Source of the DNA: a virus
Strand: one strand, 5' to 3'
Length of the DNA stretch: 64,000 bases
IMG/VR virus record: IMGVR_UViG_3300032242_002802
Coordinates: 1-64,000 of that record
Part shown: positions 5,200-44,482 of the stretch, piece after piece
How the letters are laid out: each line of letters begins with the position of its first letter
How positions within the stretch are numbered: the first letter of the stretch is position 1
Notes under the pieces: generated by a model
Told to the model about the DNA's origin: nothing
The model's input: only the letters and a program-made list of their open reading frames with translations
Database searches by the model: none
Program-made: the position numbers and the translations under genes

Positions 5200-5602
5200 T
5201 TTCTGGTAAGTCAATTGTAAATGAAACATTTCTATCAGTAAATACTTGTCTGGCTTCAAGTTCTATTCCTGAATCATAGATTTCTTTTAATTTATTTCCA
5301 CAAACAGTATCTAAAAATTCTGTCTTTAGTGTTAATTTCTCAATGTTATTATCTTTAATGATAAAAGTCATACCACTTATACTAAAAGCCATTGTATCTA
5401 ACTTACTACCATTATCAAGTGTTATAAAATCATATACCATTCCAATCTTTTGTATATTATCAACATCAAACTGAACTCTCTTACTCTCAAGTAAGGTAGA
5501 TAGTTTAATATCTCTATAAAAAGATTTCCACTCATTATAAGTGGAAAGTGCTTTATCATACTGATCTAAAGTATTATTATTTAGTTTAACATTTAATTCC
5601 AT
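5180..5602 (-). CDS. Hypothetical protein, 140 aa
   Basis: Soluble protein with alternating beta-strand-like segments (FITLDNGSKLDTMAFSISG, FIIKDNNIEKLTLKTEF). Its start codon overlaps the stop of the RNase R gene by one base, so it is the distal gene of that minus-strand operon and probably translationally coupled. No family recognised. Confidence 0.65.
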   Translation of the reverse strand: MELNVKLNNNTLDQYDKALSTYNEWKSFYRDIKLSTLLESKRVQFDVDNIQKIGMVYDFITLDNGSKLDTMAFSISGMTFIIKDNNIEKLTLKTEFLDTVCGNKLKEIYDSGIELEARQVFTDRNVSFTIDLPETKNPFN

Positions 5603-7476
5603 TAGAATACTTCAAAGTCTATTTGTTTTCTGTCTAAATCAATGGCTTTAACCATTACTTTAATTTCATCACCTAATCTTATTGAACCTCCCATTTTAGG
5701 AAATACAATATAATTATCTGCATCAATTGTGTAGTTATTGTTATATCTAACCATACCTTCACATTTACTATCAATAAGTTCAACATACATACCCCACTCT
5801 GTTACTCCTGATACAATACCTTCAAATACTTGTCCAATTTTATCTTCTAAGTATTCTATTTGTTTGTATTTAATTGAGTCTCTTTGTGCTTTTGCTGCTA
5901 AAATTTCTCTTTCAGAACACCATTTGGCCATATCTTCAATTTTATTAGGACTTCCAACAGACTTTTTATTTAAGTAATCAAATAAAACTCTATGAGTTAT
6001 TAAATCTGGATATCTTCTGATTGGTGAAGTAAAGTGAGAATAGTGAGTAAATCCTAATCCATAGTGTCCAGAGTTTATAATTGTATAAGTAGCTTTAGAC
6101 ATACATCTTGTGATTAAAGTTTCAATCATATTCTCTTCTGGTTTACCTTTAATATCTCCAACCAATTGATTAATTGATTTTTTAAGATTTGCTGGTTCAC
6201 CTTCAACTTCTAAAGTATAACCAAAGTTTTTACAGATTAAAGAAAGAGCTTGTAACTTTTCAATGTTAGGAGTATCATGTACTCTATAAACATTTGGATA
6301 TTTTGCATCTGATAATTCTTTAGCAACTAATTTATTTGCAAGTAACATATATTCTTCAATAAGTTTATTTGCATCTTTTTGAGTTTTGAAATAAACACCA
6401 GTTGGTTTCTTTGTAATTGGATCCAATTGAAATCTTACTTCAATTCCACCCATTTCAATAGAACCATCTGATATTCTTTGTTTTCTCATTTTCTTAGCAG
6501 TTGTATCTAATAAAAGTATTTCAGTTTTGAAATCTCCATCTTTACCTTCAATTATTTCTTGTGCTTCTTCATAAGAGTATCTTCTATCTGAATGTATAAC
6601 AGTTTTTCCAAACCATTTATTCAGAACTTTTCCTTCTTTATCTAAAGTAACTACAACTGAGAAACAAAGTTTATCTTCATTAGGTCTTAATGAACATACT
6701 CCATTACTTAATCTTTCAGGTAACATTGGTACACATCTATCAACTAAGTAAACAGATGTTGCTCTACTAATTGCTTCATCATCTAAATCAGTTCCTTCTT
6801 TAACATAGTGAGATACATCAGCAATATGAATACCAACTTCAATAGTATCATTATCTAAAATGTTTACTGAAAGAGCATCATCAAAATCTTTAGCATCAAC
6901 AGGGTCAATAGTAAAGGTTGTGATGTCTCTCATATCTCTTCTTTTTTCAATTTCTTCTTCTGATATTTCAAAAGGTATTAATTCTGCATCAGCTTCAACC
7001 ATTAGAGGGAAACTATTAGGTAATCCATATTCATACATAATTGAGTTCATTTCTGTGTTGTTGTCTCCAGATTCTCCTAAAATTTCAATGATTTTACCTT
7101 TAGGGGATTTGGAACCAGGTTCCCAGCTTGAGAACTCAACCAAAACTTTTTGGTCATTCTTAGCATTGTGTTCACCTTTAATATAAAAATCTACTGGAAT
7201 TTTTTGACTGTCTGGTATTACAAAGGTTAGGTCTTTGTTTAAGTGTACTTTACCAACAAATTGTGTACGGAATCTTTCTAATACTTCTATTACTTCCGCT
7301 TCTACTTTATTATTCTTGATAATAATTTTGACTTTAACTTTATCTGAGTTAAGTGCATTTAGTGTATTTTTTTTATAGATAAAAATACTTTTGTTCTCTA
7401 TTGTAATGGATGCATTTCCACTATTTGAGAAATCTATAGTACCATCATAGATACTATCTTCTTTTAATTTATTCAT
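5602..7476 (-). CDS. rnr: RNase R / RNase II family 3'-5' exoribonuclease
   Basis: 624 residues. After two cold-shock-like beta-barrel regions (about 1-130) comes the RNB catalytic domain with the metal-binding signature TIDPVDAKDFDDA (D191-D200), IHIADVSHYV, LPERLSNGVCSL, and the HFTSPIRRYPDLITHR region with catalytic/RNA-binding arginines. A C-terminal S1 domain follows (EGIVSGVTEWGMYVELI). The N-terminal HTH and basic C-tail of bacterial RNase R are missing, making it a compact form. RNase R degrades structured and non-stop mRNAs and in bacteria works with tmRNA, which this phage also encodes at 16502. Key residues appear intact. Confidence 0.93.
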   Translation of the reverse strand: MNKLKEDSIYDGTIDFSNSGNASITIENKSIFIYKKNTLNALNSDKVKVKIIIKNNKVEAEVIEVLERFRTQFVGKVHLNKDLTFVIPDSQKIPVDFYIKGEHNAKNDQKVLVEFSSWEPGSKSPKGKIIEILGESGDNNTEMNSIMYEYGLPNSFPLMVEADAELIPFEISEEEIEKRRDMRDITTFTIDPVDAKDFDDALSVNILDNDTIEVGIHIADVSHYVKEGTDLDDEAISRATSVYLVDRCVPMLPERLSNGVCSLRPNEDKLCFSVVVTLDKEGKVLNKWFGKTVIHSDRRYSYEEAQEIIEGKDGDFKTEILLLDTTAKKMRKQRISDGSIEMGGIEVRFQLDPITKKPTGVYFKTQKDANKLIEEYMLLANKLVAKELSDAKYPNVYRVHDTPNIEKLQALSLICKNFGYTLEVEGEPANLKKSINQLVGDIKGKPEENMIETLITRCMSKATYTIINSGHYGLGFTHYSHFTSPIRRYPDLITHRVLFDYLNKKSVGSPNKIEDMAKWCSEREILAAKAQRDSIKYKQIEYLEDKIGQVFEGIVSGVTEWGMYVELIDSKCEGMVRYNNNYTIDADNYIVFPKMGGSIRLGDEIKVMVKAIDLDRKQIDFEVF

Positions 7477-8033: not shown

Positions 8034-10220
8034 ATGAAACCAGTTTTAATCGTAGAAAATTCAACAAATTCTCTTGTAAGAGAGAATGCTTCTACAGGTA
8101 ATAAGGATTTTATCCTTAATGGTACTTTCACAGAGTTTGGTGTTAAAAATCGTAATGAGAGAATATACACTGCTGAGAAGTTCTTACCTGCTTTAGGTGA
8201 GTTGAATGAAAGAATGAGCAGCTTAGGTGCTGTTTTTGGTGAATTTGATCACCCAGATGTTTTTGATACTTCATTATCAAGAGCATCACACATCATCACC
8301 AAAGCTGAATATGTTTCTGAAAAGAACACAGTTGAAGGAGAAATCAAATTGTTAAGTACATATTGGGGAAAAGAAGCAAAGGCATTAGTTAATGATGGAT
8401 GTCCTGTTTTTGTATCTTCAAGAGCTGCAGGTATTACTGAGTCTGATGGTTCAGTATCATTGAAAAAACTTTTTACATATGACATTGTTGCTGATCCAGG
8501 ATTTGCATCTGCAAGAATGAGTGTAAAAGTATTGAATGAATCTTTAGGTTATTGTACTGATGGACAAATTGAAAAAAATAACTTTAGGATATATGAAATG
8601 TCTGACGAGTCCAAAATGAACGAATTATTCAAAATGAACAACAATGACTTTGTAACAAAACAACAACTAAGTGACTATTCAAAGTATTTAGTTAATGAGA
8701 TTGCATCTACTAAAAAAGTAGTAAATAATGCAATTACTAAAGGTAATATGCCAGCTAAAAAATTAGAGCAATTACTTGAGTATTATGAAGAGTTAAATGG
8801 AACTAACTCACAAGTTGCTAAATATTTAGATTATTTAGCTGACAAAATCCAAGTGGTAGTTAATGAAAATAAATCATTAAAAGAAACTACTACAAAATTG
8901 GCTAAACACAATGATTACTTAGCTGAGAACTTAGAAAAAGCTATTAACTATTCAGAATATTTAGCTGAGAATTTAGATAAAAATATTGAGTATTCAGAAT
9001 ATTTAGCTGAAAACTTAGATAAAAATATCAATTACTCAGAATATATTGCTGAAAACTTAGACAAAAACATTTCTTACTCAGAATACTTAGCTGAGAACTT
9101 AGACAAAAACATTGAATATTCAGAATACTTAGCAGAAAACTTAGACAAGAATATTGCTTACTCTGAATACATTGCTGAAAACTTAGACAAAAACATTGCT
9201 TACTCAGAATACATTGCTGAGAATGTTGATAATTCAATTGCTTACTCAGAATACTTAGCAGAACATGTTGAAGGTAACATTGCTTACTCTGAATACATTG
9301 CTGAACATTTAGATGATAACATTGCTTACTCTGAATATGTTGCTGAAAACTTAGACAAATCTATTTCTTACCAAGGAATGATAGTTGAAAAATTAAACTC
9401 ATTTGGTAAATTAAATGAAGGATTTGGTGATGATGAAGGTCATGCTTTCCCATCAATTGAAGATGCTGGTTTTGAATCACAAGAAGAAGAGGAAGAGGAA
9501 GAAGAATTCCACGGAGACTTTGCACAAGATGCTGCTGAATTTGGTAAAGAAGCTGAAAAGTTTGCACATGAAGCTGAAGAATTTGCAGGTCATGAAGAAG
9601 GTGAAAGAGAAGAAATGGAAGGTGAAAGAGAAGAAATGGAAGGTGAAAAAATGGAAGATGAAGAAGAAATGGAACAAGAAGAAGAATTTGCAGGTCATGA
9701 TGACTCTGAACTTTCTGAATCTATTAATAAATTAATTGAAGAAGCTAAAAAACGTAAAGTTTCTGAAAGCAGTGATTTGAACTTTTTAAAGTTCTTAAAC
9801 AAATCACAAGTTGATAGTTTTTATGCTCTATCAGATGAAGAACAAGATACTGTTAAACTACACATAAACGAGAGTAGTTATTTTACACAGAAAGAAGTTC
9901 TTACTTTGATTACAGAAGCATTATCTACTAAAAACGAAACTCTTGAAGAAAGAGTAATCAGATTGATGCCTGATAACATTAAGCCAATCTGGGGTACTTT
10001 AAATGAATCTGCTAAAAAATCTGTCTTATCACAAGCTAGATTATATCCAGAAGAAGTTTTAAGAACTGAAAATCAAATTGAGCATTTCTGGGGAACTAGA
10101 AATATCAAAACTAATGAAACTGTAACTAAAAAACTTGTTGCTCATGAAGGTTTAATCCAAGAGGATAAACTATCTGATACAGAAGTTTCTATGATTATGG
10201 AAAGATTTAGAAGAGTATAA
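8034..10220 (+). CDS. 21: Prohead protease fused to scaffold (gp21-gp22 type)
   Basis: 728 residues. Residues 1-168 are a herpes-type prohead serine protease: GTFTEFGVKNRNERIYT, catalytic His in GEFDHP (H73) and Ser in VFVSSRAAG (S128/129), then VADPGFASARMSVK. A helical region with eleven 14-residue repeats follows (292-445), then a very acidic Glu-rich stretch and a helical C-terminal core. In T4 the protease (gp21) and scaffold (gp22) are separate genes. Candidate self-cleavage sites of the form [LI]-N-E before S/G occur at VLNE-S (after E169, would free the protease), KLNE-G, HINE-S and TLNE-S. Directly upstream of the capsid gene. Confidence 0.88.
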   Translation: MKPVLIVENSTNSLVRENASTGNKDFILNGTFTEFGVKNRNERIYTAEKFLPALGELNERMSSLGAVFGEFDHPDVFDTSLSRASHIITKAEYVSEKNTVEGEIKLLSTYWGKEAKALVNDGCPVFVSSRAAGITESDGSVSLKKLFTYDIVADPGFASARMSVKVLNESLGYCTDGQIEKNNFRIYEMSDESKMNELFKMNNNDFVTKQQLSDYSKYLVNEIASTKKVVNNAITKGNMPAKKLEQLLEYYEELNGTNSQVAKYLDYLADKIQVVVNENKSLKETTTKLAKHNDYLAENLEKAINYSEYLAENLDKNIEYSEYLAENLDKNINYSEYIAENLDKNISYSEYLAENLDKNIEYSEYLAENLDKNIAYSEYIAENLDKNIAYSEYIAENVDNSIAYSEYLAEHVEGNIAYSEYIAEHLDDNIAYSEYVAENLDKSISYQGMIVEKLNSFGKLNEGFGDDEGHAFPSIEDAGFESQEEEEEEEEFHGDFAQDAAEFGKEAEKFAHEAEEFAGHEEGEREEMEGEREEMEGEKMEDEEEMEQEEEFAGHDDSELSESINKLIEEAKKRKVSESSDLNFLKFLNKSQVDSFYALSDEEQDTVKLHINESSYFTQKEVLTLITEALSTKNETLEERVIRLMPDNIKPIWGTLNESAKKSVLSQARLYPEEVLRTENQIEHFWGTRNIKTNETVTKKLVAHEGLIQEDKLSDTEVSMIMERFRRV
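8907..9368 (+). repeat. Eleven in-frame 42-bp repeats encoding YSEYLAENLDKNIx
   Basis: Tandem repeats with exactly 42-nt period; the unit encodes Y-S-E-Y-(L/I)-A-E-N-L-D-K-N-I plus one variable residue. First and last copies are degenerate (HNDYLAENLEKAIN; YSEYVAENLDKSIS). Fourteen residues are two heptads, consistent with an extended coiled coil in the scaffold. Confidence 0.9.
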
Positions 10221-10315: not shown

Positions 10316-12034
10316 ATGTCACAAATTAGAATAGATAATCAAAAAGCCATGAAAAAATGGTCTCCAGTGTTGGAAAACATGGGAGTAACAGGTGATAGAC
10401 TTGAATGGATGTCAGAATATGCTGAATTCCACTCTATCAATGAGAACGCATATGTTAATGCTACAAACGTAGCTGGTATGGGTAATGTATTAGCAGCACA
10501 ACCAGGTGCTTACTCAGGTACTACTTTAGGAACTTTAAATGGTGGTTCTTATCCAAATGCTTCTGTTGGATCAGGTGATGTTGGTCAAAACTTATTACCA
10601 GTAGCTATGAAAATTGCTGCTCAAACAATTGGTTTAGACTTAGTTGCTGTAAAACCAACTCCAGGTCCAAAATTAGACTTACTTTTTATTGATTTTCAAT
10701 ATGATGATGTTGATTTAACAACAAATGAAAGACCACAAGTTTTCAAACTTGATGTTGGATATGGTACAGGAACTCAATCTAATTTGAATAATGTATTAGC
10801 TGGTTTAACTGCAAGTGGTACAATTATTCAAAATCAAGGTGGTTTATTACAAGGTAGAGTATTCATTAATGTAGGTACTTCTTCTAATTATACTTCTTAT
10901 ACAGAACCTAAAAGTACTGATGCTCCTGCTGGTATTGCAGCTGGTAGACAAAATTGGGTTGAATTTTTAGGATTCTCAAGAGTTGATGGATTACCAATGT
11001 TTAGAGCATTTAGACAAGCAAATACTGCAGGTCAATACAACACATTTGGTTACACTGCAACATTGAATACATTTGATAGTACATCATCAATGCAATCACA
11101 AATAAAATGGATTTGTGGTCTTACTCAATCAAATCCATCAATTCAATTAATATCTGCATTAGAAGATCACATTCCTGGATTCTCTACTAACTGGGCTGCT
11201 CAACCTTCTGGACAAGAAGCTGGTGCTTACCCAATGTCAAGATTAGAAGATGACCAATCTTACTCAGGTGTTATTGGACCAAAAATTTCTTCTAAAACTA
11301 TTGCAGTTGGTACTATTGAAATATCTTCAGCTTTAAGAAGAACAGAAATTGAAGACATCAAAGCTAACACAGGTATGGATATTGTTCAAAAAATGGAATC
11401 AATCCTTGTTAATGAATTGTCTCAAACAATCTCTAAACAAATTGTTTCTAAAATATTTGAAATGGGTGCTTTAAACAGAACTAATGCTCCTAAAAAATCT
11501 GATAATAATACTTCATTATTTGATTTAGATACAGCTTATGCTGGAACTTCATTTGTTGGTGGTGAAACTACTCACGCTGTTCAAAGAAAACTTATAACTA
11601 GAATTGCTCACGCTTCTAACTATATTGCAACAGAGGGACGTGTTGGACCTGCTCAATACTTAATCACAAATGGAGGTTTAGCTGCAGCATTACAAGATAT
11701 TGCTGGTTACACAATTAACCCAGTTAAATCTAAAATGAACTCTCAAGGTCAATTATACCCAGTAGGTTCTATTGGAGACATCTCAATCTATGTTGATCCA
11801 TATATGAGATATAATGATAATAGAATTGTATTAGGAAGAAAAAATAATCCTGACCAACCAGGTATCATCTTTGTACCTTACTTAATGGCACAATCTATCT
11901 CAGTTATTTCTGAGGCTACATTTGCTCCAAGAATGTTACTTAGATCAAGATATGCTATTGCAGAAGTGGGATGGTATCCACAAAAACAATTTATGCAAAT
12001 AAATGTTACTGATGCTAACCAATTACTTAACTAA
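10316..12034 (+). CDS. 23: Major capsid protein, gp23-like
   Basis: 572 residues with the HK97 fold pattern of T4 gp23: N-terminal helix KKWSPVLENMGV, the YVNATNVAGMG segment, the P-domain helix around QKMESILVNELSQTISKQI, and C-terminal NPVKSK...GSIGDISIYVDPYMRYNDNRIVLGRK...ISEATFAPRMLLRSRYAI. A likely prohead-protease cut lies at SINE-N (after E43), leaving NAYVNATN as the mature end, in the position equivalent to the T4 gp23 cleavage. It has its own promoter-like element and a terminator. A diverged partial copy occurs at 18947. Confidence 0.95.
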   Translation: MSQIRIDNQKAMKKWSPVLENMGVTGDRLEWMSEYAEFHSINENAYVNATNVAGMGNVLAAQPGAYSGTTLGTLNGGSYPNASVGSGDVGQNLLPVAMKIAAQTIGLDLVAVKPTPGPKLDLLFIDFQYDDVDLTTNERPQVFKLDVGYGTGTQSNLNNVLAGLTASGTIIQNQGGLLQGRVFINVGTSSNYTSYTEPKSTDAPAGIAAGRQNWVEFLGFSRVDGLPMFRAFRQANTAGQYNTFGYTATLNTFDSTSSMQSQIKWICGLTQSNPSIQLISALEDHIPGFSTNWAAQPSGQEAGAYPMSRLEDDQSYSGVIGPKISSKTIAVGTIEISSALRRTEIEDIKANTGMDIVQKMESILVNELSQTISKQIVSKIFEMGALNRTNAPKKSDNNTSLFDLDTAYAGTSFVGGETTHAVQRKLITRIAHASNYIATEGRVGPAQYLITNGGLAAALQDIAGYTINPVKSKMNSQGQLYPVGSIGDISIYVDPYMRYNDNRIVLGRKNNPDQPGIIFVPYLMAQSISVISEATFAPRMLLRSRYAIAEVGWYPQKQFMQINVTDANQLLN

Positions 12035-12055: not shown

Positions 12056-12083
12056 AAAAAGACTCCTTTTAGGAGTCTTTTTT
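12056..12083 (+). terminator. Terminator after the capsid gene
   Basis: AAAAAGACTCCT / AGGAGTCTTTTTT hairpin with T run. Confidence 0.88.
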
Positions 12084-12094
12084 GTTTTATACAA

Positions 12095-12104
12095 TTAATA
12101 TATA
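12095..12104 (+). promoter_or_regulatory. Late-promoter-like motif TTAATATATA
   Basis: Exactly four bases before the ATG at 12109; supports that start over the upstream in-frame ATG at 12082, which lies in the terminator tail. Confidence 0.6.
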
Positions 12105-12108
12105 CATT

Positions 12109-12501
12109 ATGAGAATTAAGAAATATAAATCATTTAATGAAAGTAAAAATAAATTTCCTAACATAAAAACTTTGGATATTGATGGATTTATTGTATATTT
12201 GGGACGTGATGCAAAATCTAATGACCATTTAACATTTAATATGTCAAATCCTGATGATATTTGGATGCACACAAAAGGTGTTCCAGGTAGTCATATGTTA
12301 ATTGTTGTTAGAGAAAAACTACCTACACCAGAAGTAATAAAAAAAGTTGCTGAGATTGCTAAAAAGAATAGTAAAGCTAAAGATGAAGATAAAGCAACTG
12401 TAGTTTATTGTAAAGCAAAATTTGTTAAAAAACAACTAGGTATGAATGATGGTCAAGTAAGAGTTGATTATGGAAACTCACATGAAGTAATAGTAAATTA
12501 A
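12109..12501 (+). CDS. Stand-alone NFACT-R (DUF814) domain protein with packaging peptide
   Basis: 130 residues. After the N-terminal MRIKKYKSFNES (capsid-targeting type), the rest is an NFACT-R domain: DGFIVYLGRDAKSNDHLTF (24-42) and DDIWMHTKGVPGSHMLIVV (49-67), the two signature blocks of RqcH/Rqc2/NEMF and FbpA C-terminal regions. In RqcH this domain helps hold obstructed 50S subunits and peptidyl-tRNA while Ala tails are added. The NFACT-N, HhH and coiled-coil parts are absent, so it cannot be a full RqcH; it could compete with or modulate host ribosome quality control. Two bases separate it from the downstream peptidase gene, suggesting one operon. Confidence 0.85.
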   Translation: MRIKKYKSFNESKNKFPNIKTLDIDGFIVYLGRDAKSNDHLTFNMSNPDDIWMHTKGVPGSHMLIVVREKLPTPEVIKKVAEIAKKNSKAKDEDKATVVYCKAKFVKKQLGMNDGQVRVDYGNSHEVIVN

Positions 12502-12502
12502 T

Positions 12503-13849
12503 ATGGCAGATATAAAAATAAAATTTTCACCAAGATTGATAAAAGTCATCAAACAAATTGATGATGAGTTTGAAAATAATCTATCCTATAAGATATTAGG
12601 TCTTATTGATGGTAGTCTTAAATATGAAAATGTATTAAATATTTACTATATGGACTTATCTAAAGTTGATAATTGTTTTGATATTGTAATAAAAGGAAAA
12701 AAGTCAACAATTAGTATAGCAAAGTTTAGTAATACTTACTTCCCTGATTTAAAGATTTCTGACAATGGTTTAATAGAATTTCACACTGCATATAATTCAT
12801 TTAAAGGAGAAACATTTGGTATTGTTACTGGTACACCAGTTGAACATAAACCATTTGTTTTTAATCCTAAAGATGTACGTTCTACTTTTTTATCATTAGT
12901 TACAAAGACTTATCCAATGGGTCATGAAAAAGAAGTATTACAATTTTTACCTAAACTTGATACAGATATACATGGAAATTATTATAAAATAATTCCAGGT
13001 GATACAAAAACTATGTTTACTTCTCACTTAGATACTGCTGACTGGAAACAATTACCTACTAAATTAATGTCTAAGATGATTGACAATGAAGAGTATATCT
13101 TCACTGATGGTACAAGTATTTTAGGTTCAGATGATAAAGCAGGAGTAACTATAATGCTTTATATGATGGCACATAATGTTCCAGGATTATATTACTTTTT
13201 CTTAGGTGAAGAAAGAGGTGGTGTTGGTTCAAGATTAGTTGCTGGTGATTTTGAAGAAATAGATTATCTTAAAGATATAAAAAGATGTATATCATTTGAT
13301 AGAAGAAAAACAGGTTCTGTTATTACTTCTCAATATGGTAGAGTTTGTTGTTCTGATGATTTTGGTTCTGCTTTATGTAGAGAATATAGTAGCAATGGTG
13401 TAAAGTTATCATTAGATGATACAGGAATATTTACAGATTCTGCTTCTTTTATTGATAATATACCAGAATGTACTAATATATCAGTTGGTTATGAAAATGA
13501 ACATACTACTAAAGAAATACAAAATATTACATTTTTAGATAAGATTGCTAAAGCATCAGTCAATGTTAATTGGAGTAAATTACCTACTATTAGAAAAGTT
13601 GGTATAAATAGTGAGATTATTAGAAAGTATAAAAATTTAATACAACAAATTAAAAGATATGCATTTGACCTTGATGTAAAAGTTGTAGGGTATGATGGTA
13701 AAGTATTCATTGAGTTTGACTCATTAGGATGTGATATAAAGACAATAGGGAACACATTAAAATATATTAATAATATCTTATCAAGATATAATATTATTGA
13801 TCCTTATGTGGAATTTGAAGAAACGTATATCAAAATAGAAATAAAGTAA
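12503..13849 (+). CDS. M20/M28-type zinc aminopeptidase with unknown N-terminal domain
   Basis: 448 residues. The first 130 residues are unrecognised. Then comes a co-catalytic zinc peptidase core: TSHLDTAD (metal His/Asp), GSDDKAGVTIMLYMM (bridging Asp), FLGEERGGVGS (catalytic Glu-Glu), SFDRR (metal Asp) and GYENEHTTKE (metal His). These are the five ligands and the general base of the peptidase T/M28 class. It probably removes N-terminal residues from peptides in the cytoplasm. It is flanked by two genes carrying the packaging peptide but lacks it itself. Family within the clan is uncertain. Confidence 0.85.
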   Translation: MADIKIKFSPRLIKVIKQIDDEFENNLSYKILGLIDGSLKYENVLNIYYMDLSKVDNCFDIVIKGKKSTISIAKFSNTYFPDLKISDNGLIEFHTAYNSFKGETFGIVTGTPVEHKPFVFNPKDVRSTFLSLVTKTYPMGHEKEVLQFLPKLDTDIHGNYYKIIPGDTKTMFTSHLDTADWKQLPTKLMSKMIDNEEYIFTDGTSILGSDDKAGVTIMLYMMAHNVPGLYYFFLGEERGGVGSRLVAGDFEEIDYLKDIKRCISFDRRKTGSVITSQYGRVCCSDDFGSALCREYSSNGVKLSLDDTGIFTDSASFIDNIPECTNISVGYENEHTTKEIQNITFLDKIAKASVNVNWSKLPTIRKVGINSEIIRKYKNLIQQIKRYAFDLDVKVVGYDGKVFIEFDSLGCDIKTIGNTLKYINNILSRYNIIDPYVEFEETYIKIEIK

Positions 13850-14214
13850 TGATAAAGAATTATAAAAAATTTACAGAGAGTTTAGAAGGTTCTATGAGTG
13901 ATAATAGAGACTATTATGATGATGAATATTATGGTCATAATACTGATGGTATGGAACATATAACATATCTATTAAGAACTACTCTAAGAAATAAAGGTAT
14001 TGAAGATTTTACTGTTGATTATAGAGATTATGATATATGTATATCAGTATTCTTGTATGAATTGGAAAAATTGAGTACAATGATGAATATATTTGACATA
14101 TTAGAACATTTGAGAACTGATATTTTACCACAATATGATTGTGAATTTGATATGTATCAAACTAAAAAAACAGGTGGTAGTGTATTAGAATTTAATTTTT
14201 TCTATAATGAATAA
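13849..14214 (+). CDS. Hypothetical protein with packaging peptide, 121 aa
   Basis: Begins MIKNYKKFTES, matching the capsid-targeting pattern with a cut after E10. The ATG overlaps the peptidase stop by one base (TAATG), implying coupled translation. The remainder is acidic, Asp/Tyr rich, with an alpha/beta look (GIEDFTVDYRDYDICISVFLYEL). No family recognised. Confidence 0.7.
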   Translation: MIKNYKKFTESLEGSMSDNRDYYDDEYYGHNTDGMEHITYLLRTTLRNKGIEDFTVDYRDYDICISVFLYELEKLSTMMNIFDILEHLRTDILPQYDCEFDMYQTKKTGGSVLEFNFFYNE

Positions 14215-14266: not shown

Positions 14267-15025
14267 ATGCAGTATTTGAAAAAATTTGAAGAAATTTCCT
14301 TTGGAAATCTATTCAATAAAAAGAAGGAAGAAAAACCTCAACCTACTGGTGAAGTAATAATAAGACCAATGAAAGAGGAAGATGTTGATGATTGTTTAGA
14401 TTTAAAATATCAATATTTTGGGCATTTTTATGGAGATTTAGATGATCCAATGACTAAAGCATATCATGATAATTATGCACTTAGTAAATTAGATTTATCT
14501 GTTTCATTAATTGCTGAGATAGATGGTAAAATAGTTGGTGGTTATATTCTTGAGAAAACAGGTCTACCTATGTATCCAGGTAATTTTTATGACTTTTCAG
14601 GTGAAAAATTAACAGGTGTTGAAGGAGTTTCATTATTTGTGGATCCAAATTATAAATCTGCAGGTATTGGACATAAACTTAAATACTATTATAAAGAAAA
14701 TAAACACCCTGAAATATCTTTCATTTGGGGTATGGCATTTCATGGTTTAAATAATATGAACCACTGGTTAAAAACAAGAACTATGTTCAATGACTTATTT
14801 GGTGTTTATTACACTATTGAGTTTTATACACCAGGTGGTATAAATAAATATCCAAAAACAAAATATTTGGATTTTTATGAACAAAATAAAATAAATGTAG
14901 TTGATTATATTAATAGTGAATTAAAAAAAGGTAAGAAAGTTAATAGTATTGCATCAGTATTAGTTGATTATGGATTTGATAAAAGTGAAGTAATGGAAAT
15001 AGCAAATTATTGTAAAGAAGAATAA
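14267..15025 (+). CDS. GNAT-like acetyltransferase with packaging peptide
   Basis: 252 residues. N-terminal MQYLKKFEEI fits the capsid-targeting peptide. A GNAT domain follows: VIIRPMKEEDVDDCLDL (about 30-46), LIAEIDGKIVGGYILE, and motif A VSLFVDPNYKSAGIGHKLKYYY with the acetyl-CoA pyrophosphate loop in modified form (SAGIGHK for Q/RxxGxG/A). The C-terminal 60 residues are extra and helical. It would acetylate a small molecule or protein; substrate unknown. Two bases separate it from the cysteine-peptidase-like gene. Confidence 0.78.
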   Translation: MQYLKKFEEISFGNLFNKKKEEKPQPTGEVIIRPMKEEDVDDCLDLKYQYFGHFYGDLDDPMTKAYHDNYALSKLDLSVSLIAEIDGKIVGGYILEKTGLPMYPGNFYDFSGEKLTGVEGVSLFVDPNYKSAGIGHKLKYYYKENKHPEISFIWGMAFHGLNNMNHWLKTRTMFNDLFGVYYTIEFYTPGGINKYPKTKYLDFYEQNKINVVDYINSELKKGKKVNSIASVLVDYGFDKSEVMEIANYCKEE

Positions 15026-16868: not shown

Positions 16869-16898
16869 AAAAAAGTCCTTCAATTGAAGGACTTTTTT
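16869..16898. terminator. Bidirectional terminator after tmRNA
   Basis: AAAAAAGTCCTTC / GAAGGACTTTTTT with AATT loop, 5 nt beyond the tmRNA acceptor stem and overlapping the stop of the convergent gene. Confidence 0.88.
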
Positions 16899-17370
16899 AT
16901 TTTAACTTAACATATATATCAATATTTTTAATTTTCTTGTTTGTTGTCTTACCTGATAATAATTGTTTTCTATCATAGAAAAAATGTGTATGTTTTGTAA
17001 TATACATTGGAGTTTCAAAATCAACAACCAATTCATCTGCAAAATCTTTTTGATAAGAAGGAATCCAGGATTTAAGAAAAGTAGGACATATTTCATATTT
17101 AATATCTAACATTTCAAAGAATGGTATAAATTCATCTTTGATTTCTCTCCAGTAAAAAGAACGTGCTCTTGCAACTGCTCTTAGATGTGGTAAATCAACT
17201 TTAATTTTCCTTAATGATATTCTCCAAGCATCACAATTTGGTGTCCATACTATTTTCACTTCAAACCCTTCATCAAGTAAATAAGCTAAATTCTGATTAC
17301 AAAACTTTTGTAGTTCATCTTTGATTTCAGAATTACCAAAAGATTCAAAAAACTTTCTTAAATATTTCAT
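16897..17370 (-). CDS. Hypothetical protein with packaging peptide, 157 aa
   Basis: Starts MKYLRKFFESFGNS, capsid-targeting pattern with a cut after E9. The rest is soluble alpha/beta (GFEVKIVWTPNCDAWRISLRKI) with several aromatic residues. No family recognised. Minus-strand motif TTAATATATA sits four bases before the ATG. Confidence 0.72.
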   Translation of the reverse strand: MKYLRKFFESFGNSEIKDELQKFCNQNLAYLLDEGFEVKIVWTPNCDAWRISLRKIKVDLPHLRAVARARSFYWREIKDEFIPFFEMLDIKYEICPTFLKSWIPSYQKDFADELVVDFETPMYITKHTHFFYDRKQLLSGKTTNKKIKNIDIYVKLK

Positions 17371-17401: not shown

Positions 17402-17908
17402 ATGATAAATAGATTTGATGGTAGATATAGTTTTCTTTCAAACTTCTACCCCTGTAAAATAGAACACCAAGGTATAACTTACCCATCTGTTGAACACTAC
17501 TATGTTGCAATGAAATGTAATAGTAATCAAACATTTGATGGAGTATATTATACACCTGTGGATTTTAGAGAAATGATTGCAACTATTAAAAGTCCAGGAC
17601 ATGTAAAGAAAATTGGCCAAAGAATTAAAATAAGATCTGACTGGGATTCTAAGAAATTAGAGTTTATGACTTGGGGTGTTAATGAAAAGTTCAAGGATCC
17701 TGCATTAAAAGAAATGTTACTAATGACTGGTGATGTTGATATTGTTGAGGGTAACTGGTGGCATGACATCTATTGGGGCCAATGTACTTGTGAAAAATGT
17801 GCAGGTAAAGGTAAGAATAAGTTAGGTAAACTTTTAATGGAAGTTAGAAGTGAACTAAATGGCACAAAGAAACCTAACCTTTATGATGTCTTATTTCCAA
17901 AAAAATAA
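17402..17908 (+). CDS. NADAR (YbiA/RibX-like) N-glycosidase-type protein
   Basis: 168 residues from the ATG at 17402. Hallmarks are FDGRYSFLSNFYPCKIEHQGITYPSVEHYYVAMK (5-38), KLEFMTWGVNEKF, and EGNWWHDIYWGQCTCEKCAGKGKNKLGKLLMEVR (116-149) with the zinc-knuckle CxC-x2-C insertion seen in one NADAR branch. NADAR domains bind ADP-ribose/NAD-type nucleotides; some remove ADP-ribose from guanine in DNA, countering DarT-type toxins. In a phage this suggests relief from ADP-ribosylation defence or NAD metabolism. Upstream of, and probably co-transcribed with, the methyltransferase. Confidence 0.88.
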   Translation: MINRFDGRYSFLSNFYPCKIEHQGITYPSVEHYYVAMKCNSNQTFDGVYYTPVDFREMIATIKSPGHVKKIGQRIKIRSDWDSKKLEFMTWGVNEKFKDPALKEMLLMTGDVDIVEGNWWHDIYWGQCTCEKCAGKGKNKLGKLLMEVRSELNGTKKPNLYDVLFPKK

Positions 17909-19971: not shown

Positions 19972-20325
19972 TTATCTCATTAATCCTGCATTTACTAAAT
20001 CATTTACTATCTCTCTAGCTAATTCAGTTTTTAGATTATCATCATTTGCAACATTTTCTAAATCATACATTTTAAGATTATTAAGAACTATTTGGTGTGC
20101 TGTTAAGTCACTTCCATTTGATTCTTCTAAACTTTCAATAGAATCATCAACTTCATCTGCTGATAAGTCATCCATTTTTTTAGTTACATCATTATAATGA
20201 AACTTTGTGTTTCTTGGAAATTGTTGTTTATCTGCACTATTTTTAGTGAAGTCTCTTTTTAAGTCTTGAAGTTCAGCTTGCTCTTCTTCTTTTTTGAAAT
20301 CTTCAAATTTTACTATTTTTGCCAT
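19972..20325 (-). CDS. Acidic hypothetical protein, 117 aa
   Basis: Begins MAKIVKFEDFKKEEEQ, a possible looser version of the packaging peptide. Highly charged, Asp/Glu rich centre (SADEVDDSIESLEES) and a helical C-terminus. No family recognised. Last gene of a minus-strand run. Confidence 0.65.
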   Translation of the reverse strand: MAKIVKFEDFKKEEEQAELQDLKRDFTKNSADKQQFPRNTKFHYNDVTKKMDDLSADEVDDSIESLEESNGSDLTAHQIVLNNLKMYDLENVANDDNLKTELAREIVNDLVNAGLMR

Positions 20326-28507: not shown

Positions 28508-29578
28508 TTAAGAGTTATACTTAAAGTTGTGGTTTTCTTCAATGTTAAGAAGAGTTTCATAAATCAACTCAATAACATTTTTAACATCTTTCTTATGAAC
28601 TGTTTCACAAGTTGTATGCATATATTTCAATGGTAATGAAATAAGTGCAGATGGAGTTCCACCATTTGAGTAAGCAAATGAATCAGTATCAGTTCCAGTA
28701 TGAGTAGAACTTGCTGCTAATTGGTGAGGGATTTTTTTACTCTCAGCAGTATCTAAGATTAATTTTCTTAATCTATTGTGAACTGCAGGAGCTCTGGTGA
28801 TAACACCACCATCACCAGCAACATGTTCTCCTTGTTTACTTGGAGTATAACAAGGTGATGAAGTTTCATGACAAACATCAGTTACAATAGCAACATTTGG
28901 TTTAATAGTTTGTGCAATCATTTCAGCACCTCTTAAACCAATTTCTTCTTGAACAGAATTTACTACATAAAGTTTGAAAGGTAGTTTAATATCTTTCTCT
29001 TTTAATTTTCTTGCAACTTCTGCAATCATAAATCCACCAATTCTATTGTCTAAAGCTCTACCAGTGTAGTAATCTTTACCCAATTCCATTAGTTCATCTT
29101 TGAAGGTAACAACTGTACCAATTTTGATTCCCATTTTAGCAACATCTTCTTTAGAAGAAGCACCAATGTCAATAAAGATAGAGTCTAAATCCGCTTCTTT
29201 CTTTCTATCATGAATGTGAATAGCAGGGTGTCCAAAAACACCTGTAACAGGTCCTTTTTCTCCCCATAGGTTAACTCTCATAGAAGGTGCAATTGTTACA
29301 TCAGAACCACCATTTCTGATTACTTTGATATAACCTTTAGAATCAATGTAATTAACAAACCAAGATATTTCATCTGAGTGAGCTTCAATTACAACTTTAA
29401 AGTCTGATTCTAAATTACCCATAACTCCATAAGCAGTTCCATAGTTATCAAGTTCAACTTGATCAGTATATTTAGACATATAGTCCATCCATACTTTTTG
29501 ACCACCTAATTCATATTCAAATCCAGTTGGAGAAGTACTATTTAAGTATTCTTTTAAAAATTTCTTGTTTATTTTCAT
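28508..29578 (-). CDS. M42-family (TET-type) aminopeptidase
   Basis: 356 residues, the usual length of M42 glutamyl/leucyl aminopeptidases. Conserved ligands in order: VIEAHSDEISWFV (His), YYTGRALDNRIGG (bridging Asp), VNSVQEEIGLRGAEM (catalytic Glu-Glu), AIVTDVCHETSS (Asp) and KYMHTTCETVHKKD (His). M42 enzymes form dodecameric tetrahedra that degrade peptides released by proteases. The phage also encodes ClpP, whose peptide products would be substrates. All catalytic positions look intact. Possibly acquired from the host; no phage-specific peptide at the N-terminus. Confidence 0.93.
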   Translation of the reverse strand: MKINKKFLKEYLNSTSPTGFEYELGGQKVWMDYMSKYTDQVELDNYGTAYGVMGNLESDFKVVIEAHSDEISWFVNYIDSKGYIKVIRNGGSDVTIAPSMRVNLWGEKGPVTGVFGHPAIHIHDRKKEADLDSIFIDIGASSKEDVAKMGIKIGTVVTFKDELMELGKDYYTGRALDNRIGGFMIAEVARKLKEKDIKLPFKLYVVNSVQEEIGLRGAEMIAQTIKPNVAIVTDVCHETSSPCYTPSKQGEHVAGDGGVITRAPAVHNRLRKLILDTAESKKIPHQLAASSTHTGTDTDSFAYSNGGTPSALISLPLKYMHTTCETVHKKDVKNVIELIYETLLNIEENHNFKYNS

Positions 29579-29644: not shown

Positions 29645-29980
29645 ATGAAATTTAGATTAATAAAAGACTTAATAATAAACACTGGTTTTGAAGAAATAAA
29701 ACTATACGATAAAGGAACTATATTTACTCCTAATAATGAGGGTAATTATGAGTTCAATTCACATGATGGAAAAACAAAAATCCAATCAAAAGAAGACTTA
29801 CTTGATAAAAAGAATTTATTTGAGTATCTTCCTGAGATTGAATTAAAAGTTAAAGAGTTAGAAATAGAAGAGGATGACATAGTTAAAAACTATAGAATCC
29901 AATTAGATATAAAAACATCATTTAGAAAACTTAAAGAAATTGAAAAGTTCTTAAAAGAGAATGTAAATGAAATGTTATAG
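29645..29980 (+). CDS. Hypothetical protein, 111 aa
   Basis: Starts MKFRLIKDLIINTGFEEIKLYDKGTIFTP; N-terminal half looks like a small beta barrel (strands around IKLYDKGTIF and GNYEFNSHDGKTKI), C-terminal half is a charged helix. Divergent from the M42 gene. Its last codons overlap the end of the convergent metallopeptidase gene by 6 nt. No family recognised. Confidence 0.62.
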   Translation: MKFRLIKDLIINTGFEEIKLYDKGTIFTPNNEGNYEFNSHDGKTKIQSKEDLLDKKNLFEYLPEIELKVKELEIEEDDIVKNYRIQLDIKTSFRKLKEIEKFLKENVNEML

Positions 29981-30559
29981 AATTTGACCTTCTAATAATT
30001 CAAAAAATGTGCTGGCATTAGTTTTTGCTAAGTCATCAGTCATCATTCTATAGATTTCTTCTCCCATATTTTCATTACCTCTTAACATACGCTCCATATT
30101 AACTATTTGGGTAAATCCCATTGTTCTACAAGAATCAATTGCATAAGTATTTGCATCATCTTCAAGTTCTCTGTAGTTCTTCAAGAATTCTTCTTTATTA
30201 CCATCTACAACTGTTTGAAAGTATTTAGGTGTAAATTCACCATTTTCTTCTTGAAAAGCATGTCTTGATTCATGAAGTGCAATGAAAAACTTAATATCTC
30301 CAGGAACTGGTGGTGTTGAATTAATTAAAACTCTATCAGTACCAACAAAACAACCCATAATAGGTTTTTGAGTATTGAATGGAAAGTAATGTATTTTAAA
30401 ATTACTTCTATTTTGATTCCACCAAGAAATAATGGTTTCTTTACTTGCTCCAAGTGGTGGAGTTCTACCTTCATTTAGTCTATCTATAAAGTCTGATATA
30501 GATATTTCACCTGGGAAATTTTTTTCAAGTGATTCATTAAATCTTTTTAAGTGTTTCAT
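29975..30559 (-). CDS. HExxH zinc metallopeptidase with packaging peptide
   Basis: 194 residues from the ATG at 30559, chosen because it gives MKHLKRFNES, the clearest packaging peptide in the window (an upstream ATG would add four residues). The core has FFIALHESRHAFQEENGEF, a zincin HExxH motif, and downstream YRELEDDANTYAIDSC with an E-x-x-x-N/D helix that could give the third ligand, as in gluzincins. Second such peptidase after 15751; the two share little else. First distal member of a four-gene minus-strand operon whose proteins all carry the peptide. Confidence 0.8.
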   Translation of the reverse strand: MKHLKRFNESLEKNFPGEISISDFIDRLNEGRTPPLGASKETIISWWNQNRSNFKIHYFPFNTQKPIMGCFVGTDRVLINSTPPVPGDIKFFIALHESRHAFQEENGEFTPKYFQTVVDGNKEEFLKNYRELEDDANTYAIDSCRTMGFTQIVNMERMLRGNENMGEEIYRMMTDDLAKTNASTFFELLEGQIL

Positions 30560-30579
30560 TTTATTTTTCATTTATTTTT

Positions 30580-30951
30580 TTAGGCTACACCTTCTTCACC
30601 ATCATCATATGTTTCTTCCCTGTATTTATAAGGATTTATATTTGACAACTTTTTTAAAAGTCTATTCATTTCTTCTGTTTTTTCACCTAATCTATCTATA
30701 ATATCAGTCATAACATCAACTGGATCTTGATCATCAACAATTCTATACATCATTTCTTTATATAAAGGATCTTGTGTATCTAAATAGTCTTTAAGTTCAA
30801 TTTTAAGTGCTGTAAATGCTGCCCAGAAGTCACCTATTTTATCATCTCTGTCATTGAGACCTGATACTACTACATCTGAAAATTGTCTTTCTAATGGACT
30901 TAAATTTCCAAACCTTTGTTCAAAGTTTTCAAAGAGTTTTAAGTATTTCAT
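30580..30951 (-). CDS. Hypothetical protein with packaging peptide, 123 aa
   Basis: Starts MKYLKLFENFEQRFG (packaging-peptide type). The rest is helical and acidic (PVDVMTDIIDRLGEKTEEMNRLLKKL). Its start overlaps the stop of the 30951 gene by one base, within an operon of four peptide-bearing genes. No family recognised. Confidence 0.7.
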   Translation of the reverse strand: MKYLKLFENFEQRFGNLSPLERQFSDVVVSGLNDRDDKIGDFWAAFTALKIELKDYLDTQDPLYKEMMYRIVDDQDPVDVMTDIIDRLGEKTEEMNRLLKKLSNINPYKYREETYDDGEEGVA

Positions 30952-31643
30952 TATTTTAATTTTATTTTTTCTGTTAAATAAAAATGTTTACCTATAACTT
31001 GGAATGCATCTTCAAAAGCATCTATTACCATTCTTCTTTCAGTTCCCATATCATAGATTCTATCACCTAAATCAATTACATTTCTTTCTAATTCATCAAA
31101 TGAAATATCAGGATTTCCAAACATTAAAGTATCAATAATATATTCTCTAACAATGTCATCATAACTACTTAACTTTCTTTCCAATTCTTCTACAATACCT
31201 TCTTGGTCTGCAGATTCACCAGGATATATTTCTAAGATTCTTTTAACCATTGAATATATTTGTTTAACATCTTCTGATTTCAAAGATTCTGTCCATCTAC
31301 CTTGATATGTTTCTGATACACCTAATATAGAGTGTATATCTTTCTCTATAATGTCTAATCCTTCATCTATTGAACTAACTGCAGTTTCAAAGTCAACAAC
31401 ATTACTTGCAATTTTTTTAAGCATTAAATCATCTATATCAAACTCATATCTTAATACAAGTTCATTACTTGTAAAATTAACAAATAATTCATGGTCATTT
31501 TTATTTTCCCACTCATACATAAATGCTTGACCACCTATACTATCTACAAGTTCTTTAATTTCTTGCATTTTTACATCCAATACACTATCAGAACCTGTTT
31601 CTACAAATTCTCTAATGAACTCATTATATTTTTTAATCATCAT
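30951..31643 (-). CDS. Hypothetical protein with packaging peptide, 230 aa
   Basis: Starts MMIKKYNEFIREFVETGS (packaging-peptide type; possible cut after the E of FIRE). Mostly helical, acidic, with an N-terminal alpha/beta stretch (AFMYEWENKNDHELFVNFTSNELVLRYEFDIDDLML). No family recognised. Six bases downstream of the 31650 gene. Confidence 0.7.
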   Translation of the reverse strand: MMIKKYNEFIREFVETGSDSVLDVKMQEIKELVDSIGGQAFMYEWENKNDHELFVNFTSNELVLRYEFDIDDLMLKKIASNVVDFETAVSSIDEGLDIIEKDIHSILGVSETYQGRWTESLKSEDVKQIYSMVKRILEIYPGESADQEGIVEELERKLSSYDDIVREYIIDTLMFGNPDISFDELERNVIDLGDRIYDMGTERRMVIDAFEDAFQVIGKHFYLTEKIKLK

Positions 31644-31649
31644 ACTTTA

Positions 31650-32288
31650 TTATTTTTTAAGAGTTATTTTTATAATCAAATGTTTTACTTTTTTCAAATC
31701 ATAACCATATCCCTGTTTAATACGTATTTCTGTTGGATTATCAATGAATTCTAAATTAAATTTTGAAAAATCAATAGGATTTTCTCTAATATAATTATCC
31801 CAAAGTCTTTTAGTTCCCTCTACCCATACTTTTATACTATCTCCCTCTTTAGATATAGAAGAATATATTTTTGAACTACCCTTTAAATCATTAGCTAACT
31901 TCTTAATTAGATATTTATCATCTTCTTCTATTTTACTATAAATATCAATAGATATTTTAGTTGATCCTAACCATACAGTTACTGTATTTCCATATGTTTC
32001 ATCCATAACATTCTTAAACATAATCAATTCATCTAATAATTCCCAAAGTCTTTTATCTTTAACATTAGTATTAGTTGCACCATTAACTCTCTCAAAATGT
32101 TCAAAATTAAAAGATATAGTTGTCTCATTATATCCTGCAAATTCACCAGAAGTTACAAGTGATTTATGAGTATCTATCTTAACACCAAGATGTTTTATAG
32201 GAACTAAAAAATCATTTACTATTAAGTCTAAATCAAGCTCTTCTTTACTTTCTTTTAGGTATTCTATAAATTTAGTTAAATGTTTCAT
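31650..32288 (-). CDS. Hypothetical protein with packaging peptide, 212 aa
   Basis: Start set at the ATG ending at 32288, which gives MKHLTKFIEYLKES and lies five bases from a TTAATATATA motif; a longer upstream start would overrun the motif. The body has strand-rich segments (ETTISFNFEHFERV, NTVTVWLGSTKISIDIY). No family recognised. First gene of the four-gene operon. Confidence 0.7.
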   Translation of the reverse strand: MKHLTKFIEYLKESKEELDLDLIVNDFLVPIKHLGVKIDTHKSLVTSGEFAGYNETTISFNFEHFERVNGATNTNVKDKRLWELLDELIMFKNVMDETYGNTVTVWLGSTKISIDIYSKIEEDDKYLIKKLANDLKGSSKIYSSISKEGDSIKVWVEGTKRLWDNYIRENPIDFSKFNLEFIDNPTEIRIKQGYGYDLKKVKHLIIKITLKK

Positions 32289-35920: not shown

Positions 35921-36643
35921 TTACCATATACCTAACTTTCTGTATATCTCTTCCCATTTGTCTTCTAATTGCTTTCTTTCATCATTATCAGTAATCTTAG
36001 TTGGATCTAAAACAGCTTTAACTTCATCAACATATCTACCACCAGGTCCTGGAGATTGATAGAATTTAATTGTATCACCTAAATCATCAACTTTTACTAA
36101 AGGTACATTTAACTTATTCATAAGTTCTACTAATATACCATTCACATTTATATTATCTTCTAATCTTTTAACAATAGCAATTATAGAATATTTAGAATAA
36201 GTTTTATCAAAACATCTATATTCAATGTATATCATATCATCTGATTGATAAGTTTTATATTTCTGTCTTGATAATTCAAAAGATTCTTTAGTAAACTCTT
36301 TAGACTCTGTTAAACTATCAATTCTATAAAACTTTTCTTCACTTGTTATATTTACAAAAAACTTACATCCTAATATTTTAGATATGTATAATAATAAACC
36401 TTTTTGTAAAGTTGGTCCTGTTAGTATATTTCCTAATTTAATTGAGTCTGCTTTATATTTCTTCTCAACAATAGCAATGATATTATTTGAATCATCATAT
36501 ATAACTTCATCTAAATCAAGCATAAAGTGACTTTTTAAAAATCCATTTCCTTTATCTCTACTACGATGACCATTTGAGAAAGGATTTCCACCTCCATGTA
36601 CTCTTTCTCCTGCTTCTTCTTGTATCAATGTAAATTTCTTCAT
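35921..36643 (-). CDS. Nuclease-like hypothetical protein with packaging-type N-terminus
   Basis: 240 residues from the ATG at 36643, which gives MKKFTLIQEEAGER and lies four bases from a TATATA motif. LIQEE-A resembles a prohead-protease site. A segment LDLDEVIYDDSNNIIAIVEKKYK (about 43-65) has the D...E-x-K spacing seen in PD-(D/E)XK nucleases, but this is a weak pattern. The C-terminal half is alpha/beta. If packaged and active it could attack host DNA early. Confidence 0.6.
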   Translation of the reverse strand: MKKFTLIQEEAGERVHGGGNPFSNGHRSRDKGNGFLKSHFMLDLDEVIYDDSNNIIAIVEKKYKADSIKLGNILTGPTLQKGLLLYISKILGCKFFVNITSEEKFYRIDSLTESKEFTKESFELSRQKYKTYQSDDMIYIEYRCFDKTYSKYSIIAIVKRLEDNINVNGILVELMNKLNVPLVKVDDLGDTIKFYQSPGPGGRYVDEVKAVLDPTKITDNDERKQLEDKWEEIYRKLGIW

Positions 36644-37227: not shown

Positions 37228-37707
37228 ATGAGACGTTTAATGATATATGAAGAATTTTCAAGTCAGGATAGAACTGATGAATTACTGGATAAAATATCTA
37301 AGTATGGTATATCATCATTGACTCCACATGAGAAAGACTTTTTAGATGCTGTTTCTACAGGTGATGAAGAGCAAGTTAAAACTAAGATGAGAGATTTAGA
37401 TACTGATCAAGTATTTGAGGATAATCATTTTAAATTTGAATTAGAAGATACTAAATATGAAGGTGATGGTATATATTACATTGGTACTTTATATGTTCCT
37501 GATTTAGAGTTTGAAGATGGTAGAAGAATTGAAGGTGATTTAAAAGGAAAAATAATACTTAATAATGATGGTTCATATGCTTTAGATTTTGAAAAGACTG
37601 CATATGAGAAGGGTAAAGAAGTAGAGTATGATGTATTTGAGTTTTGTAATGGACTTGAATATGAATTAGATAGTTTTATAGACTATGTTATTCAAGAATT
37701 GGAATAA
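37228..37707 (+). CDS. Hypothetical protein with packaging-type N-terminus and short DUF6576-like motif
   Basis: 159 residues. Starts MRRLMIYEEFSSQD, a looser packaging peptide. Next comes ELLDKISKYGISSLTPHEKDFLDAVS, which resembles the short helical LLDKI...G-x-x-SLT-x-x-E...FL motif often found at the C-terminal ends of Bacteroidota membrane proteins (DUF6576). The C-terminal domain is a beta-rich acidic region. Suggests borrowing from a Bacteroidota host. Confidence 0.62.
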   Translation: MRRLMIYEEFSSQDRTDELLDKISKYGISSLTPHEKDFLDAVSTGDEEQVKTKMRDLDTDQVFEDNHFKFELEDTKYEGDGIYYIGTLYVPDLEFEDGRRIEGDLKGKIILNNDGSYALDFEKTAYEKGKEVEYDVFEFCNGLEYELDSFIDYVIQELE

Positions 37708-43321: not shown

Positions 43322-44482
43322 TTATTTCTTTCTACAACTACAAGTGCATGCATCTCCACATTTACACTCAGTTGCAATCCTATCACAACAATCACAATAA
43401 GTATTACTTTCTTTAGCTAAACGTTTTGCTTTATTCTTCAAAAGATTTGCATAAGGATCTTGTCTTGTTTCTCCACCACCTGGTGTAAATCTATCATTTG
43501 CTTTCCCATCTTCAATTGCTAAGTTATTAAAACTTGCAAATGGCATAATAGATGATTCTAAACCTGGAGTTTGTGACATATTTTCAGAGAACTCATCATA
43601 TTGTTTAACTCTTGTAGGGATATTAGTTCTTACAATGTTCTCAGGTTTATTAGTATCTTTGATAATAAACTCATCAATAAAAGGCCATAGTTGTTCATGA
43701 TCTATATCTTCACTTGAAAGTGCATTAGTCATGTGTCTAACATTTCCTGGGTCATCATCAGAGAAACCTACTTTTGCAGTGTAACCAATTTTCTTAGCAT
43801 AATCATTAACATCTTTAATAAAGTCTTTAAGAGCATCTTCTTTAGCTGCCTCTGGATTCTCAGGAGAACCACCTCTTGAAGGAGCAGATACACCAATAAA
43901 GTGACATAAATCTAAATAATCTTGAACCAATTCAGATTTAGAGAAACTTGACATACTTTCATAATTGTCTTCATGGTCTCTTGATTTACCAAATAATTGT
44001 AAGAACATTAGCAAACTATCATGCATTTTAGACTTTTCTTCTTGAGATAAACTATCAATTACAAATTCAACACCTTTTCTCATACCTTCTGATTCATGTC
44101 CTCTTGCAGTAATAATTGCAAATACAGAACCATTAGTCAAACACTCAATGAAGTCCTCCCAAGCAGGACCAAAAGCTCCCATGTTTATAGCTTTAGCAAC
44201 ATCTTTTTTGAATATTTCAGGGTCTTCAATATCTCTAAAGTTTCTAAATGCTCTTGAATAGTCTAATCCAACAATAGTTTCACCTTTGTATTCAAAGTCT
44301 TCTTTACCTAATTTAGAACGATGTATTGCAAAATCTGCAGTACTCATACCAATTTCTTCACCATCTTTAGTTTTTACCATTATCTCAGTTGGCATATTTA
44401 AAATATTGTCATCCCAGTCAAAAGCTGCATATTGGAGTACAGGTTTGTTTATATTTTCATTAAATTTTTTTAAAAACCTCAT
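43322..44482 (-). CDS. HAD-like phosphatase domain protein with packaging peptide and Cys-rich tail
   Basis: 386 residues. Starts MRFLKKFNENINKP (cut after E9). HAD-superfamily signatures: AAFDWDDNILNMP (D-x-D motif I, residues 18-30), FAIITARGHES (motif II Thr, about 138), and VGFSDDDPGNVRHM (motif IV acids, about 235). The order fits a HAD phosphatase such as a nucleotidase or polynucleotide phosphatase. The end has nine Cys in YCDCCDRIATECKCGDACTC, probably metal-binding. If packaged, it enters the cell with the DNA. Confidence 0.78.
   Translation of the reverse strand: MRFLKKFNENINKPVLQYAAFDWDDNILNMPTEIMVKTKDGEEIGMSTADFAIHRSKLGKEDFEYKGETIVGLDYSRAFRNFRDIEDPEIFKKDVAKAINMGAFGPAWEDFIECLTNGSVFAIITARGHESEGMRKGVEFVIDSLSQEEKSKMHDSLLMFLQLFGKSRDHEDNYESMSSFSKSELVQDYLDLCHFIGVSAPSRGGSPENPEAAKEDALKDFIKDVNDYAKKIGYTAKVGFSDDDPGNVRHMTNALSSEDIDHEQLWPFIDEFIIKDTNKPENIVRTNIPTRVKQYDEFSENMSQTPGLESSIMPFASFNNLAIEDGKANDRFTPGGGETRQDPYANLLKNKAKRLAKESNTYCDCCDRIATECKCGDACTCSCRKK

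Follow-up and report, generated by a model that had tools for sequence, protein, structure and literature searches.

A single-domain NFACT-R protein with a capsid-targeting-like N-terminus encoded beside the major capsid gene of Mahaphage-like phages

The gene that follows the major capsid protein (MCP) gene of a Mahaphage-like virus encodes a protein made of a single NFACT-R domain, the RNA/ribosome-binding part of RqcH and NEMF, behind a short, conserved N-terminal peptide. It lies in a window of 64,000 nucleotides, the whole stretch of DNA analysed here, with positions those within a 68-kb virus record (IMG/VR record IMGVR_UViG_3300032242_002802; Table 1). The gene sits in a late/virion setting, and its phage relatives form a clade of their own. 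We tentatively favor the reading that this is a late, probably packaged virion protein in which a targeting peptide is joined to an NFACT-R domain that would act on RNA of the host translation apparatus.

Table 1. Features of the NFACT-R locus and other genes of the window
Feature	Positions	Strand	Details
RNase R	5602-7476	-	TIGR02063, 651 bits (cut-off 598)
Prohead protease (gp21/S77 type)	8034-10220	+	phrog_207 head maturation protease, E 1.6e-30
Major capsid protein (gp23 type)	10316-12034	+	PF07068, E 2.3e-30
Rho-independent terminator-like hairpin	12056-12083	+	GACTCC/GGAGTC stem and T-run, between MCP and NFACT-R genes
Late-promoter-like motif TTAATATATAC	12095-12105	+	ends 3 nt before ATG; TATATA-N4-ATG
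Single-domain NFACT-R protein	12109-12501	+	130 aa and stop; Pfam, PDB, AlphaFold2, Foldseek
Capsid-targeting-like peptide MRIKKYKSFNE	12109-12141	+	predicted cleavage after E11; disordered in model, pattern match
Predicted mature NFACT-R	12142-12498	+	119 aa, 13.4 kDa, pI 9.3
Metallopeptidase-like protein (PepT-like)	12503-13849	+	phrog_4191 peptidase, E 2.7e-63
Small acidic protein, conserved neighbour	13849-14214	+	N-terminus MIKNYKKFTES, capsid-targeting-like
ClpP	46134-46793	+	PF00574, E 6.9e-67

Domain, fold and relatives

The sequence-only reading had described the protein as a free-standing NFACT-R domain, and this description is borne out. Pfam family PF05670 (NFACT-R_1) matches residues 24-119 (E 2.8e-13, 50.8 bits, cut-off 29.8), and the best sequence matches in the PDB are B. 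subtilis RqcH (E 3.5e-17), S. suis FBPS (3.7e-11) and CCDC25 (1.5e-4). No significant PHROGs family was found for the protein (top E 0.026). AlphaFold2, run on an alignment of 52 relatives, gave a model with a mean pLDDT of 90.7 that reaches about 97 over the domain and falls under 50 in residues 1-12, the first 12 residues being predicted to be disordered. The structural match to RqcH NFACT-R that had been anticipated was found with this model: the top Foldseek match is RqcH (8s1u_H, E 1.5e-11, Z 20.0), and 5h3w also matches (E 6.9e-10, Z 19.4). In fold comparison with VIA-align, RqcH scored Z 20.0, FBPS 19.4, CCDC25 16.6 and NEMF/Rqc2 about 15, and the next unrelated fold scored 3.4. Residues common to the phage and RqcH sequences include N38, D50, W52, H54, K56, P59-G60-S61-H62, S88, K108 and G115, among others, and the W-x-H-x-K and PGSH motifs of RqcH are thus retained.

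NFACT-N was matched neither in the window record nor in 11 related phage records (12 in total), and the protein is therefore single-domain. The 130-aa protein has no NFACT-N with the tRNA-binding DR motif that would make it a full RqcH/NEMF factor. Its model has no coiled-coil extension and the domain runs to the C-terminus, which sets it apart from a CCDC25-like architecture. Several other explanations of the gene were considered and rejected. A chance open reading frame is ruled out by 57 distinct relatives and by the conserved protein sequence and fold, and a degraded RqcH whose N-terminal part was lost nearby by the lack of NFACT-N matches in the 12 phage records. Host contamination is ruled out by the phage-specific clade and the conserved synteny to the MCP and protease genes. 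An upstream TTG start at 12082 was rejected as well: close relatives share the ATG, and a conserved motif stands before it.

At least 57 distinct viral proteins have this single NFACT-R design, all of them from Mahaphage relatives. They were counted in the first two of three overlapping scans of viral contigs (12 loci, then the best 80 of 90, then the best 80 of 99) together with two huge phages. Among 21 related phage records, NFACT-R exceeded the cut-off in 17, with one copy per phage, and was absent from relatives of 735, 636, 462 and 540 kb. The 634- and 642-kb phages LR745206 and LR756502 carry it. The window MCP is 68-70% identical to those of LR745206 and LR756502, 50% identical to those of the 636- and 735-kb phages and 28-29% identical to those of Lak phages; by these identities, the window phage belongs to the Mahaphage clade. 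The largest members of that clade are predicted to infect Bacteroidetes (PMC7162821). INPHARED matches labelled as Listeria, Enterococcus and Helicobacter phages were set aside as long RqcH-type frames in three records, probably host DNA, and no NFACT-R frame stood out clearly when the human-faecal record MT835503 was scanned.

The phage proteins placed in trees form one clade (support 98/99 and 99/99). No cellular relative turned up when genome contigs were scanned with phage-only patterns, and a second, pattern-limited scan returned mostly Bacillota RqcH. Free-standing NFACT-R domains do occur in bacteria: 79 genomes from the phylum of a deltaproteobacterial locus (L112), a sample drawn around that locus in which many genomes may be incomplete, gave nine matches in frames of 132-198 aa. 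In three of these nine genomes a match of RqcH length likewise exceeds the cut-off; in the other six none does. Single-domain NFACT-R proteins thus seem to exist independently of RqcH and are not necessarily inhibitors. In the tree the phage clade stands on the RqcH side, apart from the bacterial free-standing proteins (96/80), a placement of moderate confidence given the long branches. The two separate clades and the position of the phage one suggest, with the same caution about long branches, that phage and bacterial free-standing NFACT-R had separate origins.

Genomic setting and the N-terminal peptide

The NFACT-R gene is set off from the MCP gene by the terminator-like hairpin, in whose stem the changes seen in relatives are compensatory (GACCC/GGGTC). 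Of 53 distinct regions upstream of NFACT-R genes, 36 have TATATA 4-5 nt ahead of the ATG; in related loci, AATATATA has this spacing in 60 of 512 distinct ORFs of at least 120 aa. We regard AATATATA/TTAATATATAC as a candidate late promoter and, because it stands so near the ATG, it would imply nearly leaderless late mRNAs. The spacing of AATATATA is bimodal, most other motif-bearing ORFs having it 16-34 nt upstream. Examples in the window are at 12095-12108, upstream of the gene at 35921-36643 and upstream of 54027.

The prohead protease is probably fused to a scaffold region, the scaffold part being suggested by repeats; PF03420 also matches this protein, at E 0.0013, below its cut-off. On the other side, the metallopeptidase-like neighbour recurs in 77 of 82 related loci and is matched by TIGR01883 (E 7.7e-9, below its cut-off). 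Median identity to the window proteins is 77% for the protease, 70% for the MCP, 65% for NFACT-R, 51% for the peptidase-like neighbour and 38% for the acidic neighbour. Four loci (L082, L089, L091 and L095) have no clear MCP match nearby, yet keep NFACT-R with the peptidase-like and acidic neighbours. A NADAR-domain protein (17402-17908; PF08719, E 1.3e-25) is encoded near the capsid cluster and recurs in relatives.

A packaging peptide in front of the domain had been proposed from the sequence. A capsid-targeting-like N-terminus is indeed present; that it is a packaging signal is what we infer. The M...phi...E type of N-terminus is seen in 16 of the 76 window genes, against 9 such sequences at the 344 internal methionines used as controls (Fisher p = 1.7e-7, an optimistic value, as the regular expression, which allows no acidic residue before the E, was written after inspecting the sequences). 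A similar pattern is found in 54 of the 57 NFACT-R family members, where the peptide varies in sequence and length (FNE/S, YLE/S, LFE/G, YFE/S) and the Glu is constant. The phi-x-E pattern also lies close to the N-termini of MCPs (INE/N) and proteases (LIVE/N), and RNase R and ClpP of the window are without this peptide. Some relatives have an extra N-terminal domain, of about 100 aa in L014, L027, L039, L048 and L053; L009 is 277 aa and L012 is 357 aa. Most of the extended relatives (L009, L012, L027, L039, L048 and L053) again start with a packaging-like peptide. The extended proteins mostly keep an internal remnant of such a peptide as well.

In phage T4, a capsid targeting sequence is about 10 aa long, has as its last residue a Glu at which gp21 cuts, and suffices to package and deliver cargo; T4 internal proteins are present in about 360 copies each (PMC9026906). 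As a pattern match, the NFACT-R protein has the N-terminal peptide with a phi-x-E site typical of T4 internal proteins, and the same phage encodes a gp21-type protease and a gp23-type capsid protein. Because the T4 sequence is sufficient and the peptide pattern is conserved here, packaging of the NFACT-R protein in the capsid is likely, and the analogy makes it plausible that the prohead protease cuts after Glu11. The position after the capsid gene, the terminator of its own, the late-promoter-like motif and the near-capsid conservation likewise make packaging likely, and injection into the host with the DNA, as for T4 internal proteins, is plausible.

Other window genes with a capsid-targeting-like N-terminus are at 13849-14214, 14267-15025, 16897-17370, 19972-20325, 28508-29578, 29975-32288, 35921-36643, 37228-37707, 43322-44482 and 45498-45713. 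Most of their products are unknown; one is an M42 aminopeptidase (28508-29578), and another has a weak GNAT-like match (14267-15025). From this shared sequence pattern, the peptide-bearing genes may represent a set of injected proteins.

Possible role and rival explanations

Few parts of RqcH and NEMF are as poorly understood as NFACT-R, whose role in binding RNA is mostly a prediction. The C-lobe of mammalian NEMF, which contains NFACT-R, cradles the anticodon stem of the tRNA and touches the large subunit close to the central protuberance (PMC4321881). When RqcH is bound to the 50S subunit, NFACT-N and HhH hold the tRNA and the M domain sits at the stalk base, with NFACT-R poorly resolved near the A-site finger (PMC8012679). 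Given these placements and the retained W-x-H-x-K and PGSH motifs, the phage protein would most simply be expected to bind RNA, either of the large subunit or tRNA.

In the reading that we favor, the NFACT-R gene would be expressed late, beside that of the MCP. The targeting peptide would direct the protein into the head and be removed by the prohead protease after Glu11, and the mature domain would be carried in the head and enter the host together with the DNA. There its target would be structured RNA in the host's translation machinery, in the likeliest case the large-subunit/tRNA surface faced by RqcH NFACT-R, and phage translation or ribosome recovery would be favored in the first minutes. 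Cellular ribosomes far outnumber the roughly 360 copies of a T4 internal protein, so that, by this analogy, NFACT-R would be unlikely to affect 50S subunits in bulk; a rare target, or synthesis of the protein during infection as well, would change this. Counted against this reading are that NFACT-R alone is not the main ribosome anchor of RqcH and that four of the related phages are without it. The more specific proposal that the virion delivers a detached ribosome quality control (RQC) domain which, at time zero and ahead of all phage gene expression, engages large subunits or tRNAs of the host and redirects ribosome rescue or translation, we consider doubtful.

DNA is also a possible ligand, and DNA binding stays a live rival in view of CCDC25 structures solved with DNA (7eof and 8woh, among the Foldseek matches) and the basic mature protein. 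The protein might then be an internal head protein whose work is to compact or shield the genome and which does little once injected. Its pI of about 9.3 and net charge of +5 (median of 44) are as in the basic T4 internal proteins, and its gene adjoins that of the MCP and is conserved nearly as well. The 636- and 735-kb relatives, whose MCPs are 50% identical, do without NFACT-R, which argues that such a head does not need it, and retention of the RqcH-type W-x-H...PGSH signature speaks for a more specific ligand; we consider this alternative unlikely. Somewhat less probable still is that the protein stays out of the virion as a late cytoplasmic accessory to translation or ribosome rescue, its N-terminal peptide being another kind of signal. 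Expression from a late-like promoter, when virion proteins are produced, would fit, as would the RNase R and ClpP genes for translation and proteolysis in the same phage. The peptide, however, is common to many unrelated window proteins and missing from precisely these two, and it has the phi-x-E pattern of MCP and protease N-termini in a genome with a gp21-type protease.

The sequence-only reading had gone further and cast the injected domain as an apt dominant-negative for RQC. On such a model it would compete with RqcH on obstructed 50S subunits and block Ala-tailing. The domain is the same as that of RqcH, with up to about 40% identity, and stands on the RqcH side of the tree, if on long branches; delivery is predicted at time zero, and obstructed 50S subunits are rare, so that few copies might do. 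Yet RqcH is anchored by its NFACT-N/HhH and M domains, not by NFACT-R, and rqcH was detected in only 404 of 1,956 FCB-group genomes (PMC11633108). Our Bacteroides control genome matched neither NFACT-R nor NFACT-N; for Bacteroidota, rqcH occurrence here rests on that published table and this one genome. The bacterial free-standing proteins, most of them in genomes without an RqcH-length match, suggest that lone domains have roles of their own, and the capsid-like conservation is unlike that of a fast-evolving inhibitor. The proposal is at most weakly supported, and we judge it improbable.

In bacteria, RNase R and ClpP work at steps that follow ribosome rescue, and both recur in NFACT-R-bearing megaphages, so that a translation and protein-turnover theme linking them with NFACT-R is possible. 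A search of the 12 phage records for RqcP-like S4 proteins gave one S4 match (G008) and no pattern. A naturally detached and highly conserved phage family offers a simple handle on the ligand of NFACT-R. If packaging is true, a translation quality-control domain would be delivered with the DNA by phages of a clade that includes the largest known.

Comparison with known systems

The phage domain resembles the NFACT-R (PF05670) of RqcH, Rqc2 and NEMF by HMM, sequence (about 31-42% identity to bacterial RqcH) and fold. It differs from RqcH/NEMF in having no NFACT-N, HhH, coiled coil or M domain, and in the added packaging-like peptide. The bacterial free-standing proteins (L266-L274) are also single-domain, in frames of about 130-200 aa, and are 32-38% identical to the phage protein, but they form a separate clade, have no capsid-targeting-like peptide and are chromosomal, away from capsid genes. 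CCDC25 shares the NFACT-R-only architecture (24% identity), whereas it is eukaryotic and has a coiled-coil extension.

The T4 proteins IPI-III and Alt are comparable in their short N-terminal peptide ending in Glu, the gp21-type protease and the predicted ejection with DNA. Their cargo is unrelated and variable, whereas that of the phages studied here is a conserved translation-factor domain. Among viral proteins in BFVD, M1ICD2, M1HME1, M1HE72, A0A0P0YM59, A0A0P0C2D5 and V5LR89 are predicted to be NFACT-R-like, as is a NEMF-like protein of Bodo saltans virus. Several of the BFVD proteins are single-domain NFACT-R of 105-171 aa by fold, and none is known here to come from a phage. NFACT-R in a virus is therefore not new as such; its use by a phage as a packaged protein would be.
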